Positions 18,435 through 24,994 of a stretch of 35,486 bases of DNA are shown here, piece after piece. Every line of letters starts with the position of its first letter. Position 1 is the stretch's first letter. The notes beneath the pieces are model-generated. The model did no database searches. It had not been told where the DNA came from and worked only from the letters and a program-made list of their open reading frames with translations. Origin of the DNA: an uncultured Pseudomonadota bacterium (GTDB lineage Bacteria > Myxococcota_A > UBA796 > SXON01); contig CAIMSU010000030.1 in assembly GCA_903844155.1 (NCBI GenBank), positions 1 to 35,486 on the forward strand, written 5' to 3'. The position numbers were made by a program, and so were the translations under genes.

Positions 18435-19802
18435 CTACTGCAACCACGCAGGGCCGGTCGCCGTCTGCCCACCGACCAGCGCCGCACCTGTCCGCAGATC
18501 GCCCCCCACATTCGTCACGGTTCGCGACCCGTCGTACAGCAACACGCTGCCGTCGCGGAGCTTGACCGCGCCGGTGCCGTCGGGCACGCACCCGTTGAGG
18601 TCGTGGGCAGCGAGGAAGGCGGCCAGATGCTGGTAGACCTGCCCGACGGGCTTGATCGTGCGGTTGTCGTCCGCGTCGAGCTGGAAGAGCGAGTGGCCGA
18701 ACATCGGCATCCGCCGCGTGAAGTCGCTCGGTGGCGGGTCGCTGAGCGTGTGCCAGAACATCTTGTCGGCGCCCTCCAGCGCCGTTCGCGCCGCGTCGGT
18801 GACAACCATGCGCGCCTGCGCGGCCTCGTCGATGTCGTCGGTCGTCCCGACGCTCGTCTCCGTCACCCAGACCGGCTTTTGCGGCGCGTAGTAGCGCTCA
18901 TTCCGGATCCCCGCTGCCAGCCGATCGCCGTCGAGGTCGTCGTGGTAGGTGTGAACCGAGACGATGTCGATCGCGTCGAGCACGCCGTGGACGGTGACGA
19001 AGTCCCGAAAGTACGCCGCGCCTAGCGTGCTGTGGGGTCGGTACAGCCCGCCGTTCAGCACCTTCGCGGTTGGCGATGCAGCCTTGATCGCCTTCGCAGA
19101 CGCGAGGAACACCTGCGCGTACTCGGCCGGCGTGCAGAACGTCTTCGGGTCGTAGTCGGCCGAAGCGCCCTTCCCGACGAGCGAGTTTTTCAGGTCGGGC
19201 TCGTTGTCCACCTCCCAGTACCGCACCCCGCGCAGCAGCCCGGGCATGTCGCCGACCCCGTCGCCATCGTAGCGCTCGACGACGGCGGTCACATAGGCGG
19301 CGTACGCGGCCATGTCCGCGGGGACGTAGGCCTGCGCGTACTTGGCGGTGTCGTTGCCCGGCCAGGGGCTGACCATCAACACGGGCTCGAGTCCGGCGGC
19401 CTCGACGGCGGTGACCCACGCGTCCGCGGCTCCGAGCGCCCCGGGGTTCTGCTGGAGCGCCCACGCGCTGATCGCCGGGTAGTTGCCGGTGTGCCCGCGC
19501 ACGAGGCGCGCGCCGACGGAGGCAGCGAGCTGCGCCGAGGCGGTCAGGCGCAGGGCCTGGTCGCTCGCGGGCATGGTGAGCGCCAGCCGCTGCGGGACCG
19601 AGACAGCCTCGTTGATGCCGAGCGCGAACGGGCTCTCGAACGGGGGCGCAGGCAGCGGTGCAGGCGCGAGCGACGCCTCCGCTGGTCGCGCGTCCGGGCG
19701 TGGCGGGCGACCGGCCGGGGCGGCTTGCGTGTGGCAGGACGGGAAGAGACTGCTGCAACCAACGAGGAGGGCGGGCATCAGCAGCGCACCCGCAGCCCTC
19801 AC
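18435..19802 (-). CDS. Lipoprotein glycoside hydrolase (GH39/GH5-like TIM barrel)
   Basis: A 455-residue lipoprotein. GTG 19802 overlaps the previous stop as GTGA and opens a signal peptide ending in LVGC (Cys16), which decides the start. A Pro/Ala linker leads to a (beta/alpha)8 barrel at about 55-390. The acid/base Glu lies in YWEVDNEPD (E201) and the nucleophile Glu in VWVTETSVG (E315), the usual clan GH-A pair. Other barrel strands are ARLVRGH, PVLMVSPW and IDIVSVHTYHDD. The overall form recalls GH39 xylosidases or GH5-like enzymes; substrate specificity is not predictable. Coupling to the XRE-SspB gene suggests co-expression. Confidence 0.8.
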   Translation of the reverse strand: MRAAGALLMPALLVGCSSLFPSCHTQAAPAGRPPRPDARPAEASLAPAPLPAPPFESPFALGINEAVSVPQRLALTMPASDQALRLTASAQLAASVGARLVRGHTGNYPAISAWALQQNPGALGAADAWVTAVEAAGLEPVLMVSPWPGNDTAKYAQAYVPADMAAYAAYVTAVVERYDGDGVGDMPGLLRGVRYWEVDNEPDLKNSLVGKGASADYDPKTFCTPAEYAQVFLASAKAIKAASPTAKVLNGGLYRPHSTLGAAYFRDFVTVHGVLDAIDIVSVHTYHDDLDGDRLAAGIRNERYYAPQKPVWVTETSVGTTDDIDEAAQARMVVTDAARTALEGADKMFWHTLSDPPPSDFTRRMPMFGHSLFQLDADDNRTIKPVGQVYQHLAAFLAAHDLNGCVPDGTGAVKLRDGSVLLYDGSRTVTNVGGDLRTGAALVGGQTATGPAWLQ

Positions 19803-20458
19803 TTGATCACCCGGAGAAAGGGCTTCCCTGCGGGTTTTGGGGGCTCGGGTGGTGGCGCGACGACGGGAGCCTCGACCGGCAGGACGAAGTGGACCTGGCG
19901 GAAGGCGGTCCAGGGGAATGTGCACGTATACAAGCGGTCAAACGAGAGGACGCACTCAAAGGCGTCGTCCCCGAACCGTGGCTTGTAGTGGCGATGAAGT
20001 CGGGCCTCCAGGCGGATCGGGAGGTGCTCCTTGAATCGGCCGAGGACGGCAGCGGGCACGCCCGAATCGCCGAGCTGCGTCGAGTCCAGCATGAGCATCA
20101 CGTCGATGCCGAGCGCAAAGGCAAGGCCAACCACCTGTTTCGGCAGGTTCCCCTCGGGGTCGGGGGCGTCGTCGTCGTCGGAGTCGTCGTCGGGTGTGTC
20201 GATGGTGAGCGGCGGGCGCTGCTCGGTGGGTGCCGAAAACGGGGCGGTGCCGGCCAGGCCGATGCCGTCCTTGCCGAACCCCAGGGCGTCCGAGAGGAGG
20301 ACGAGGTCGTCGACGGTCATGGCCTCGGTGCCGGCGAGGCGGCGTTTGAGGATGGAGCGGTCGATGCCGGTGGCCTCGGAGAGGGCCTGGGTCGTCAGGG
20401 CGCGGCGGCGAACCTCGTCACGCAGGAAGCCGAGGAGGGGGTCTGAGGGGCGGGACAT
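19799..20458 (-). CDS. XRE-family HTH fused to SspB-like ClpX adaptor
   Basis: A 219-residue protein from ATG 20458. Residues 10-60 form an XRE-type helix-turn-helix (core TTQALSEATGIDRSILKRR). An Asp-rich linker spans 80-105. Residues about 108-195 resemble the SspB substrate-binding fold: GVPAAVLGRFKEHLPIRLEA, DAFECVLSFDRLYTCTFPW. The C-terminal end, after a Pro linker, is AGKPFLRVIK. It closely matches the ClpX-binding module at the end of E. coli SspB, GGRPALRVVK (recalled from memory). The protein may deliver substrates to ClpXP while bound to DNA, or use its HTH for autoregulation; both are inference. The stop overlaps the start of the glycoside hydrolase gene, and a 14-bp inverted repeat lies upstream. 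Confidence 0.78.
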   Translation of the reverse strand: MSRPSDPLLGFLRDEVRRRALTTQALSEATGIDRSILKRRLAGTEAMTVDDLVLLSDALGFGKDGIGLAGTAPFSAPTEQRPPLTIDTPDDDSDDDDAPDPEGNLPKQVVGLAFALGIDVMLMLDSTQLGDSGVPAAVLGRFKEHLPIRLEARLHRHYKPRFGDDAFECVLSFDRLYTCTFPWTAFRQVHFVLPVEAPVVAPPPEPPKPAGKPFLRVIK

Positions 20459-20485
20459 GTGGCCGGGCGATAACCCCTCCGGGCC

Positions 20486-20566
20486 GGGGGGCCATTGCTG
20501 GCGCTCGGCAAACGAACAACTCGTAAGTGCCCGAAAGTTCGCGATTGGGGAGAGCAATGGCCCCCC
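20486..20566. promoter_or_regulatory. Perfect 14-bp inverted repeat upstream of the XRE-SspB gene
   Basis: GGGGGGCCATTGCT (20486-20499) is exactly repeated in inverse orientation as AGCAATGGCCCCCC (20553-20566), separated by 53 bases. The site begins 28 bases upstream of ATG 20458. A weaker symmetric pair, CGAAC and GTTCG, lies inside. It could be an operator, a protein-bound loop, or a tiny mobile repeat; no flanking target duplication is visible. Confidence 0.6.
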
Positions 20567-22471: not shown

Positions 22472-24286
22472 CTATTCGGCTTCGCGGGTCTTCGGCTTCG
22501 GGCCTGGCATTGCGCCGTCCGCCGGCGGAGGTGCGGCGTGATGTTCGCCGCCCATCGGCGTGCCTGCCGCTGTGGCGTCGGGGGTCGGGGCAGCTCCGGC
22601 GCCGGCTGCGTGCGCGCTACCACCCGAATCCGCCTCACGGTGATGCGCGCCCCCGGTAGATTCAGCGCCTTCGTGGCTGGGTCCGGTCCCGTGATGCGCG
22701 CCGCCGGTGGATTCGCTGCCGCCGTGGCTGGGTCCGGTCCCGTGATGCGCGCCGCCGGTAGATTCAGCGCCTTCGTGGCTGGGTCCCGTACCGTGATGCG
22801 CGCCCCCGGTGGATTCGCTGCCGCCGTGGCTGGGTCCGGTCCCGTGATGAGCGCCGCCGGTGGATTCACTGCCGCCGTGGCTGGGCCCCGTACCGTGATG
22901 AGCGCCGCCCGTGGATTCACTGCCGCCGTGGCTGGGTCCGGAGCCCGAGTGGCTTCCGCTGCTCGACTCGCTGCCGCCGTGGCTCGCGCCCGATCCGCTG
23001 GGGCCCCCGCCGCCCGACGATCCGCCGCCGGAGTGCGCGCCGCCGCCACCTGACGAGCCTCCACCGGAAGATCCGCCGCCCGAGTGCGTCCCACCGCCTG
23101 ACGATCCGCCGCCCGAGTGCGTCCCACCGCCTGACGATCCGCCGCCCGAGTGCGTTCCACCGCCTGACGATCCGCCGCCCGAGTGCGTTCCAACGCCGCT
23201 GCTTGCACCGCCGAACCCGCCGCTTTCGTTGAACCCACCCACCGACAGGCTCCCGCGCCCGCTCAAGTTGCCGTTCTCCAGGTTCACCGAACCGCCGCCG
23301 AACGGCGTGTTGAGACCGCCGGTGGCCGAGAGCCCGTTCGGCCCGACGCTCAGGCCACCGCTGAACCCGCCGAGGCTGCCGGAAGCCGTGATCCCGTTCG
23401 GGCCGACCTCAAACCCCGAGTCCCCGGAGCCCGCCATTCCCCCGCTCCCGCCGCCCGCGCCCGACCCCGCGCCGCCACCGGAAGCGCTGTCCCCGCCTGC
23501 GCCGCCGTCCGCCGCGCCGCCACCGGAACCCCCACCACCGCCACCACCGCTCGTCGTCGCGCCCTGTTGCGAGTCCGTGGCCGTGCGACTGCCCTTTCCG
23601 CTCGGCGGGTGCTTGTGCGTAGGCGTTGCCTTTGCGGGCGTTGCGGGTGGGGGAGGTGCGGTGTTGATGTCAATTCGCGTGTCGCTATGCCAGGTCTGCG
23701 TGTCACCCGTCCAGTTGCAGGACTGCGTCGCCTCGATGCACACCGTCATCGTCGCGCCAATGTCGATGCTGTTGGAGGCATCGAGCGAGAAGTCCTTGCA
23801 CTTCCAGCTCATCGTCTCCTTGGCCTCGTGGATGATGTCCTTCTGCACGGTGACCGTCAGCACCTTGTTGGCCGCGTGGATCTCCATGTAGATCGCGTTG
23901 TTGTCGGTCGTGGAGATGATCTCGATACGCTCGGCGCCCGGCGTGTCGTCAAAATCCACCCAGTGCGAGTTTCGCGACCAGAATCGCCGATGATCGTCGT
24001 TCCCATCCTCATTCGCGTAGGGGTCCGGCGTGTCATCCCCACCGTTGTACAGCGCGCCGAGGCAGTACGGCGAATTCGTCCGGTACGCAAAGCCGATCAG
24101 CACCTCCGTGCCGATCTCGGGGAGCATCACCAACCCGCGCGACGTGCCCGCCATCGGCACCATCATCCGGATCCAGTACGACTCCGGGTTGTCCTCATGG
24201 TCGACCGGGTACTTGACCTTGACCCGCGCCATCTTGTCCGGGTCGACGTTGTCGATGACCAGTCCAGTTACAACGCCGTTCATCAT
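22472..24286 (-). CDS. gp5/gpV-like spike protein with HxH motif and repeat tail
   Basis: A 604-residue protein. Residues 1-90 form the OB-fold of phage baseplate protein V/VgrG (NGVVTGLVIDNVDPDKMARV, YWIRMMVPMAG, LPEIGTEVLIGF, LGALYNGGDD). A beta-helix-like needle (about 118-208) has ERIEIIS, KDIIHEAKETMSW, KDFSLDASNSI and ATMTVC. TPTHKHPP (221-228) then recalls the iron-binding HxH of phage spike tips. The rest is a Gly-rich part with GPNGITASGS and GPNGLSATGG, four 11-residue GGGTHSGGGSS units and six 17-residue GTGPSHGGSESTGGAHH units. There is no gp27-like domain. Two adjacent ATGs give starts at 24286 or 24283. It is clearly paralogous to the gene before it. Confidence 0.82.
   Translation of the reverse strand: MMNGVVTGLVIDNVDPDKMARVKVKYPVDHEDNPESYWIRMMVPMAGTSRGLVMLPEIGTEVLIGFAYRTNSPYCLGALYNGGDDTPDPYANEDGNDDHRRFWSRNSHWVDFDDTPGAERIEIISTTDNNAIYMEIHAANKVLTVTVQKDIIHEAKETMSWKCKDFSLDASNSIDIGATMTVCIEATQSCNWTGDTQTWHSDTRIDINTAPPPPATPAKATPTHKHPPSGKGSRTATDSQQGATTSGGGGGGGSGGGAADGGAGGDSASGGGAGSGAGGGSGGMAGSGDSGFEVGPNGITASGSLGGFSGGLSVGPNGLSATGGLNTPFGGGSVNLENGNLSGRGSLSVGGFNESGGFGGASSGVGTHSGGGSSGGGTHSGGGSSGGGTHSGGGSSGGGTHSGGGSSGGGSSGGGGAHSGGGSSGGGGPSGSGASHGGSESSSGSHSGSGPSHGGSESTGGAHHGTGPSHGGSESTGGAHHGTGPSHGGSESTGGAHHGTGPSHEGAESTGGAHHGTGPSHGGSESTGGAHHGTGPSHEGAESTGGAHHREADSGGSAHAAGAGAAPTPDATAAGTPMGGEHHAAPPPADGAMPGPKPKTREAE
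22641..22946. repeat. Six 51-bp tandem repeats of two subtypes
   Basis: Units begin at 22641, 22692, 22743, 22794, 22845 and 22896, exactly 51 bases apart. Two subtypes differ in the middle (AGATTCAGCGCCTTC versus GGATTCGCTGCCGCC). Their order is A, B, A, B, B, B. They encode GTGPSHEGAESTGGAHH or GTGPSHGGSESTGGAHH. Confidence 0.9.
23070..23191. repeat. 33-bp tandem array
   Basis: Units begin at 23070, 23103, 23136 and 23169 (last partial) with one or two changes. Each encodes eleven residues, GGGTHSGGGSS, on the minus strand. Confidence 0.88.
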
Positions 24287-24340: not shown

Positions 24341-24994
24341 CTAGTTGATGTTCGTCATCGAGGCAAAGAGCGTGAGCTGCTGGCCCCCGTTGACGGTGGA
24401 CGTCGGCGCGTCGACCTTCATCGTCGCGCCCGCTTTGATCGAGATGCTGTTGGAGGCGTCGAGGATGAAGTCCTTGCACTTCAGGCTGATCGTCTCCTTC
24501 GCCTCCACGATGATGTCCTTCCCGGAGTACAGGCTGAAGGTCTTCTCCTTCGCGTCCCAGATGAACCGAAGCTCCTCGTTGAAGCTGATGAGTTCGATGC
24601 GCTCATCGCCGGACGTGTCGTCGAACGTGAGGCGGTGGCCCGAACGACTCTGGAACACGCGCAGGTTGTTCTTCTGGTCCTCGTTCGCGTACGGCGGCAG
24701 GTCCACGCCGTTGTACAGCGAGCCGACCACGATCGCGTGGTTGATGTCGCCATGCACGAAGCTGACGAGCACCTCGTCGTTGACCTCCGGAATGGTCATC
24801 CAGCCGCGTTGCTGCCCGGCCATCGGCATCGACAGCCGCGCCCAGTAGCTCTCCGGCCCATCCTGCAGGGTCGGAAATTTCACCTTTACGCGGCCGAGCT
24901 TCTCGGGATCCACGTTGTCGGTGACGATGCCTTCGACGAGTCCCGGGAGTTGTCCGGAGACGGGGCGGCCATGCCGATCGGTGACCTTGGGCAA
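24341..24994 (-). CDS. gp5/gpV-like baseplate spike protein
   Basis: A 217-residue protein of the phage baseplate assembly protein V/VgrG OB-fold family, without the gp27-like part. TTG 24994 is preceded by AAGGA and fits the family start. The OB-fold spans about 18-98 (GLVEGIVTDNVDPEKLGRV, YWARLSMPMAG, IPEVNDEVLVSFVHGD, VVGSLYNG). A needle-like repeat region follows (about 115-195): SRSGHRLTFDDTSGDERIE, KDIIVEAKETISLKCKDF, DASNSISIKAGATMKVDAP. It ends at residue 217 with no HxH motif. Such trimers form the spike of contractile injection systems, T6SS or tailocins. A TATACT hexamer lies upstream. No sheath or tube gene is near. Confidence 0.83.
   Translation of the reverse strand: MPKVTDRHGRPVSGQLPGLVEGIVTDNVDPEKLGRVKVKFPTLQDGPESYWARLSMPMAGQQRGWMTIPEVNDEVLVSFVHGDINHAIVVGSLYNGVDLPPYANEDQKNNLRVFQSRSGHRLTFDDTSGDERIELISFNEELRFIWDAKEKTFSLYSGKDIIVEAKETISLKCKDFILDASNSISIKAGATMKVDAPTSTVNGGQQLTLFASMTNIN

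Follow-up and report, generated by a model that had tools for sequence, protein, structure and literature searches.

A conserved fusion of an XRE-type helix-turn-helix to an SspB-type domain, a probable ClpXP adaptor, in one bacterial order

SspB is a textbook adaptor that delivers tagged proteins to the ClpXP protease, and SspB adaptors function as dimers. Members of the family (PF04386), such as E. coli sspB and Caulobacter SspB (2QAS/2QAZ), combine an alpha-beta domain, a flexible acidic or proline-rich linker, and a C-terminal ClpX-binding tail of the LRVVK type. ClpXP adaptors can also steer transcription by delivering regulators, as in the pairs SspB-RseA (PDB 1YFN) and RssB-RpoS. To our knowledge, every known SspB is blind to DNA. 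In E. coli, the C-terminus of SspB (XB) binds the zinc-binding domain of ClpX (PMC12373786).

In the window, a stretch of 35,486 nucleotides, a minus-strand reading frame (19799–20458, stop included) encodes a protein of 219 residues that ends in ...KPAGKPFLRVIK and has 51 intact homologs. It begins with an XRE/Cro-type helix-turn-helix (HTH), which an acidic linker joins to an SspB domain; a proline-rich linker then leads to a ClpX-binding (XB) tail. It shares the SspB domain, flexible linker, and tail with the described SspBs, but the N-terminal HTH and the acidic linker are additional; the adaptors of SspB-RseA and RssB-RpoS, which control transcription through regulator delivery, lack an XRE-type HTH. 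In most members of the family, the SspB domain is too divergent for Pfam to call it. The 219-residue protein itself does not match PF04386, and its genome has no match above the curated cut-off, which is a database convention and not a biological feature. Since homologs from the same genus keep an ATG start with a conserved SRPSDPLL, we favor the start at 20458; a longer reading frame beginning at 20557 was judged an unlikely start, as these congeners conserve the shorter one. The combination of HTH, SspB fold, and XB tail had been proposed in an earlier note on this DNA and is borne out by profiles, fold searches, and tail conservation as detailed below. That note knew of no described protein with such an arrangement, and our search of open-licence papers found no HTH–SspB protein either.

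The HTH spans residues ~7–58 (20285–20440, minus strand). Taken as a single sequence, the window protein stays under the Pfam cut-offs for this fold (HTH_31, E 0.0034), but 27 of 28 homologs match HTH_26 or HTH_3 at E ≤ 1, with best values of 1e-8 and 1e-7, respectively. An AlphaFold model built from a two-sequence alignment places helices at residues 7–18, 23–30, 34–42, and 49–58 with a pLDDT of ~70–83, and Foldseek finds that these helices resemble XRE repressors (C.AhdI, TMt 0.72, rmsd 1.2). Outside the HTH the full-length model was poor (pLDDT 54), and the SspB domain was therefore folded separately; a PDB fold search with the full model returned mainly HTH matches. The N-terminal helical DNA-binding fold is that of the XRE/Cro-CI repressors (C.AhdI, HipB, HTH_3/HTH_26/HTH_31), in which, however, it is joined to a sensing or dimerization domain rather than to a protease adaptor. 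D50 is invariant among the homologs, and R34 and G43 are kept in at least 90% of them. The mean pairwise identities of HTH and SspB domain are equal (44% and 45%), which argues that both are under like constraint; the HTH, which has not outpaced the SspB domain in divergence, is not decaying. Its net charge is −0.5 in the window protein and +0.8 in the family mean, and the recognition helix carries a mean charge of +2.1. Such charges, near neutral for the HTH and mildly basic for its recognition helix, are compatible with DNA binding but do not establish it.

The SspB domain covers residues ~102–192 (19883–20155, minus strand). When residues 100–196 were compared by hhalign with PF04386 members of the phylum and E. 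coli SspB, they matched at 94–95% probability (E ~5e-8); the match was colinear over the domain, the tail having been left out of the comparison. Among PDB sequences, the family profile found Caulobacter SspB (2qas, E 0.017, residues 120–211; 2qaz, E 1.6), and its remaining hits were HTH-domain matches plus one low-scoring designed protein. Direct matches to PF04386 at E ≤ 1 occur in 3 of 28 homologs and are weak (best E 0.0029). The AlphaFold model of residues 98–198, again from two sequences, is of low confidence (pLDDT 60). Its first seven Foldseek hits are all either SspB (1oul, 1zsz, 1ou9, 1twb, 1ou8) or Agrobacterium AGR_C_3712 (2nys), all at nonsignificant E-values, and VIA-align puts the same entries first, with a Z of 8.2 to 2qas over 93 residues. 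A Z of about 8 is weak by itself; it counts here because the sequence profiles agree. The structural comparison thus places SspB crystal structures at the top for the region in which an SspB-like fold had been proposed, and from the profile match, the weak Pfam hits, and the low-confidence model together we regard the predicted SspB type of this domain as confirmed.

The protein closes with the XB-like tail KPFLRVIK (residues 212–219; 19802–19825, minus strand). A C-terminus of the form LR[VIL][VIL] with no more than four residues behind it is present in 51 of 51 intact homologs and in 0 of 225 other ORFs of the same loci; conversely, the 19 ORFs that matched the tail pattern among 244 from these loci are all members of the HTH–SspB family. 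L215 and R216 are invariant, and no segment of the protein varies less than the tail (entropy 1.15, compared with 1.69–1.72 for the domains and 2.5–2.8 for the linkers). This conservation is not due to chance, and the resemblance to the ClpX-binding end of SspB that had been read from one sequence extends to all of the intact homologs. The linkers, by contrast, vary in length as well as in sequence. The acidic linker (residues 69–98; 20165–20254, minus strand; charge −8.2, pLDDT <50) measures 13–68 residues in the homologs, and the proline-rich linker that separates the SspB domain from the tail (residues 195–211; 19826–19876, minus strand) 11–35 residues.

We searched 187 related genomes, including 63 of the same order (families f1–f6), and found the fusion in 56, of which 53 belong to the order. 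The 10 genomes of the order that gave no match are metagenome-assembled genomes of 72–94% completeness. Beyond the order, a profile search across the phylum (379 genomes), which is probably Myxococcota to judge from the genome sizes and SspB types of its members, turned up a single further clear full-length fusion, in G273. This gene (L084, G273:C423) lies in another family of the phylum, in a genome with 7% contamination, and reflects either a transfer or a binning error. Since no homolog was present in phage and plasmid collections, we rejected a reading of the protein as a phage repressor. The gene tree requires 7 label changes for seven taxonomic groups, where the minimum is 6 and shuffled labels give a mean of 25.6, and f1 and f3 are each confined to one side of a branch. 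This agreement with taxonomy marks the fusion as a vertically inherited, order-wide gene.

Of the 187 genomes sampled, 60 have a PF04386 match at E ≤ 0.1. All of them lie outside the order, whose 63 genomes gave 0 such matches. As far as profile searches can tell, the fusion replaces the stand-alone SspB and is the order's only recognizable SspB. In sister families of the class, the fusion-family profile matches short ORFs of 134–149 residues (L080–L083), which have the same SspB domain but lack the HTH; those of G063 and G066 are also weak PF04386 matches, and three of the four end in an SspB-type tail (GHLRVVK, GHLRIVK, or GHLRLVD). Most simply, the resident SspB acquired its HTH by fusion in an ancestor at or close to the order's root. 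A 450-residue ORF (L092, G031:C285) contains a second SspB-like domain of divergent sequence; this ORF has no HTH and ends in HLSLVE without an LR tail.

The host genome (G000) encodes two ClpX proteins with zinc-binding domains (L105 and L106, on C213 and C182), which share 32 of 39 and 25 of 39 residues, respectively, with that of E. coli. A ClpX with a near-identical zinc-binding domain is available, and only one of the two proteins may be the partner of the adaptor. The tmRNA of the host lies at C79:4253–4620 (L097:1501–1868). ARAGORN's frame for the tag peptide was rejected, as a different frame ends in ALAA and a stop and gives the tag AANNSNHFEEALAA. Many tmRNAs of the order specify tags of the ANNNxxFALAA type (ANNNKHFALAA, ANNNNNFALAA, or ANNSDHFSEALAA). 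In E. coli, the AANDENY part of the tag binds SspB and the ALAA part binds ClpX (PMC8512704). The host tag is similar to AANDENYALAA and, by this likeness, is of the right kind for SspB.

GGTTATC, at 20469–20475 (minus strand) directly upstream of the fusion gene, is likely a −10 element. GGTTA occurs in 14 of 40 upstream regions of homologs and in 5 of 210 of other ORFs, the start sites of the latter being rough, and in many family-f1 genes it sits 12–14 nt ahead of the start. This spacing fits the −10 box of leaderless transcripts better than an operator half-site, and we discarded the latter reading. A perfect 13-bp inverted repeat, GGGGGCCATTGCT...AGCAATGGCCCCC, with a 53-nt loop (20487–20565; RNA fold z −2.6) also lies upstream of the start; it was rejected as an operator because it is private to the host genome and absent from the congeners read. 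No operator or conserved palindrome emerged from the upstream regions of the homologs, in which the −10-like GGTTA is the only shared element.

Further upstream on the minus strand are two Phage_base_V genes (22472–24286 and 24341–24994), which encode VgrG-type spikes of contractile injection systems. Among the 22 neighborhoods compared, a spike homolog is present in 10, which represent several families of the order; none was found beside the stand-alone SspB-like genes of the class. PADLOC reported nothing for the spike genes or for the HTH–SspB protein. Directly downstream lies a glycoside-hydrolase-like gene (18435–19799, minus strand) with homologs in 9 of the compared neighborhoods. In five family-f1 loci (L109, L114, L116, L119, and L127), a gene a few positions away encodes what we take, from a sequence motif, to be an Aat-like leucyl/phenylalanyl-tRNA-protein transferase of the N-end rule.

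Taken together, these observations make it quite probable that the protein is the lineage's own SspB adaptor, with an XRE-type HTH added in front. Its SspB domain would bind degradation tags, in the first place that of the tmRNA, and the flexible C-terminal LRVIK tail would dock on the zinc-binding domain of ClpX, so that ClpXP would degrade the bound cargo faster. The HTH, attached in front through the acidic linker at or close to the root of the order, would bind DNA, conceivably at operator sites, or a DNA-bound partner. It could in this way bring adaptor and protease to substrates on DNA, or let the adaptor control its own promoter. The stronger version of this proposal, a DNA-binding protease adaptor whose HTH recognizes specific sites and which passes to ClpXP either itself or proteins that are bound to DNA or tagged on the ribosome, we put forward only tentatively.

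The same architecture might serve gene control as its main role, with a DNA-binding repressor or activator whose tail recruits ClpXP against a bound partner or against the protein itself. Such a switch would account for an HTH as conserved as the SspB domain across the whole order, for the retention of D50, R34, and G43, for the mildly basic recognition helix, and for the similarity of the modeled helices to XRE repressors. However, the search yielded neither operator nor regulon, the HTH is neutral in net charge, and a housekeeping adaptor role is to be expected because the fusion is the order's only SspB; we consider a transcription switch rather unlikely. Here the earlier note fares unevenly. 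Independent tests lend good support to its architecture and to the adaptor identity, but not to its description of the protein as repressor-like and as a proteolysis-controlled switch, since no operator, regulated gene, or substrate was found and the HTH charge is near neutral.

That near-neutral charge and the weak single-sequence Pfam scores would also suit an HTH fold that no longer binds DNA and has become a protein-docking or dimerization module of an otherwise ordinary SspB, the more so as XRE domains dimerize and SspB adaptors act as dimers. Against such a module, R34 and D50 are among the best-kept positions, and a mildly basic recognition helix is also what DNA-binding XRE domains have, which leaves this interpretation doubtful in our view. 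A different Sm-like barrel at the C-terminus, such as Hfq or the WYL domain of the HTH–WYL regulator PafBC, would make the protein an ordinary ligand-sensing regulator, but we consider this very improbable. PafBC and Hfq do appear in the VIA list (Z 5.9 and 5.1), but SspB entries rank higher over the whole domain (Z 8.2–6.9), sequence profiles find SspB, and every intact homolog carries the SspB tail. The most economical reading takes the protein for the one SspB that the order has, extended by an HTH, and not primarily for a repressor.

That the only recognizable SspB of an entire order has a conserved HTH points to a way of coupling ClpXP delivery to DNA, and the fusion may link protein destruction to DNA or to gene control. 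If the adaptor does sit at specific DNA sites, proteolysis could be targeted by chromosome location, or transcription could be switched by degradation. The fusion is a ready-made test case for directing regulated proteolysis to sites on the chromosome, and tools for targeted degradation could be built on it as a natural scaffold.
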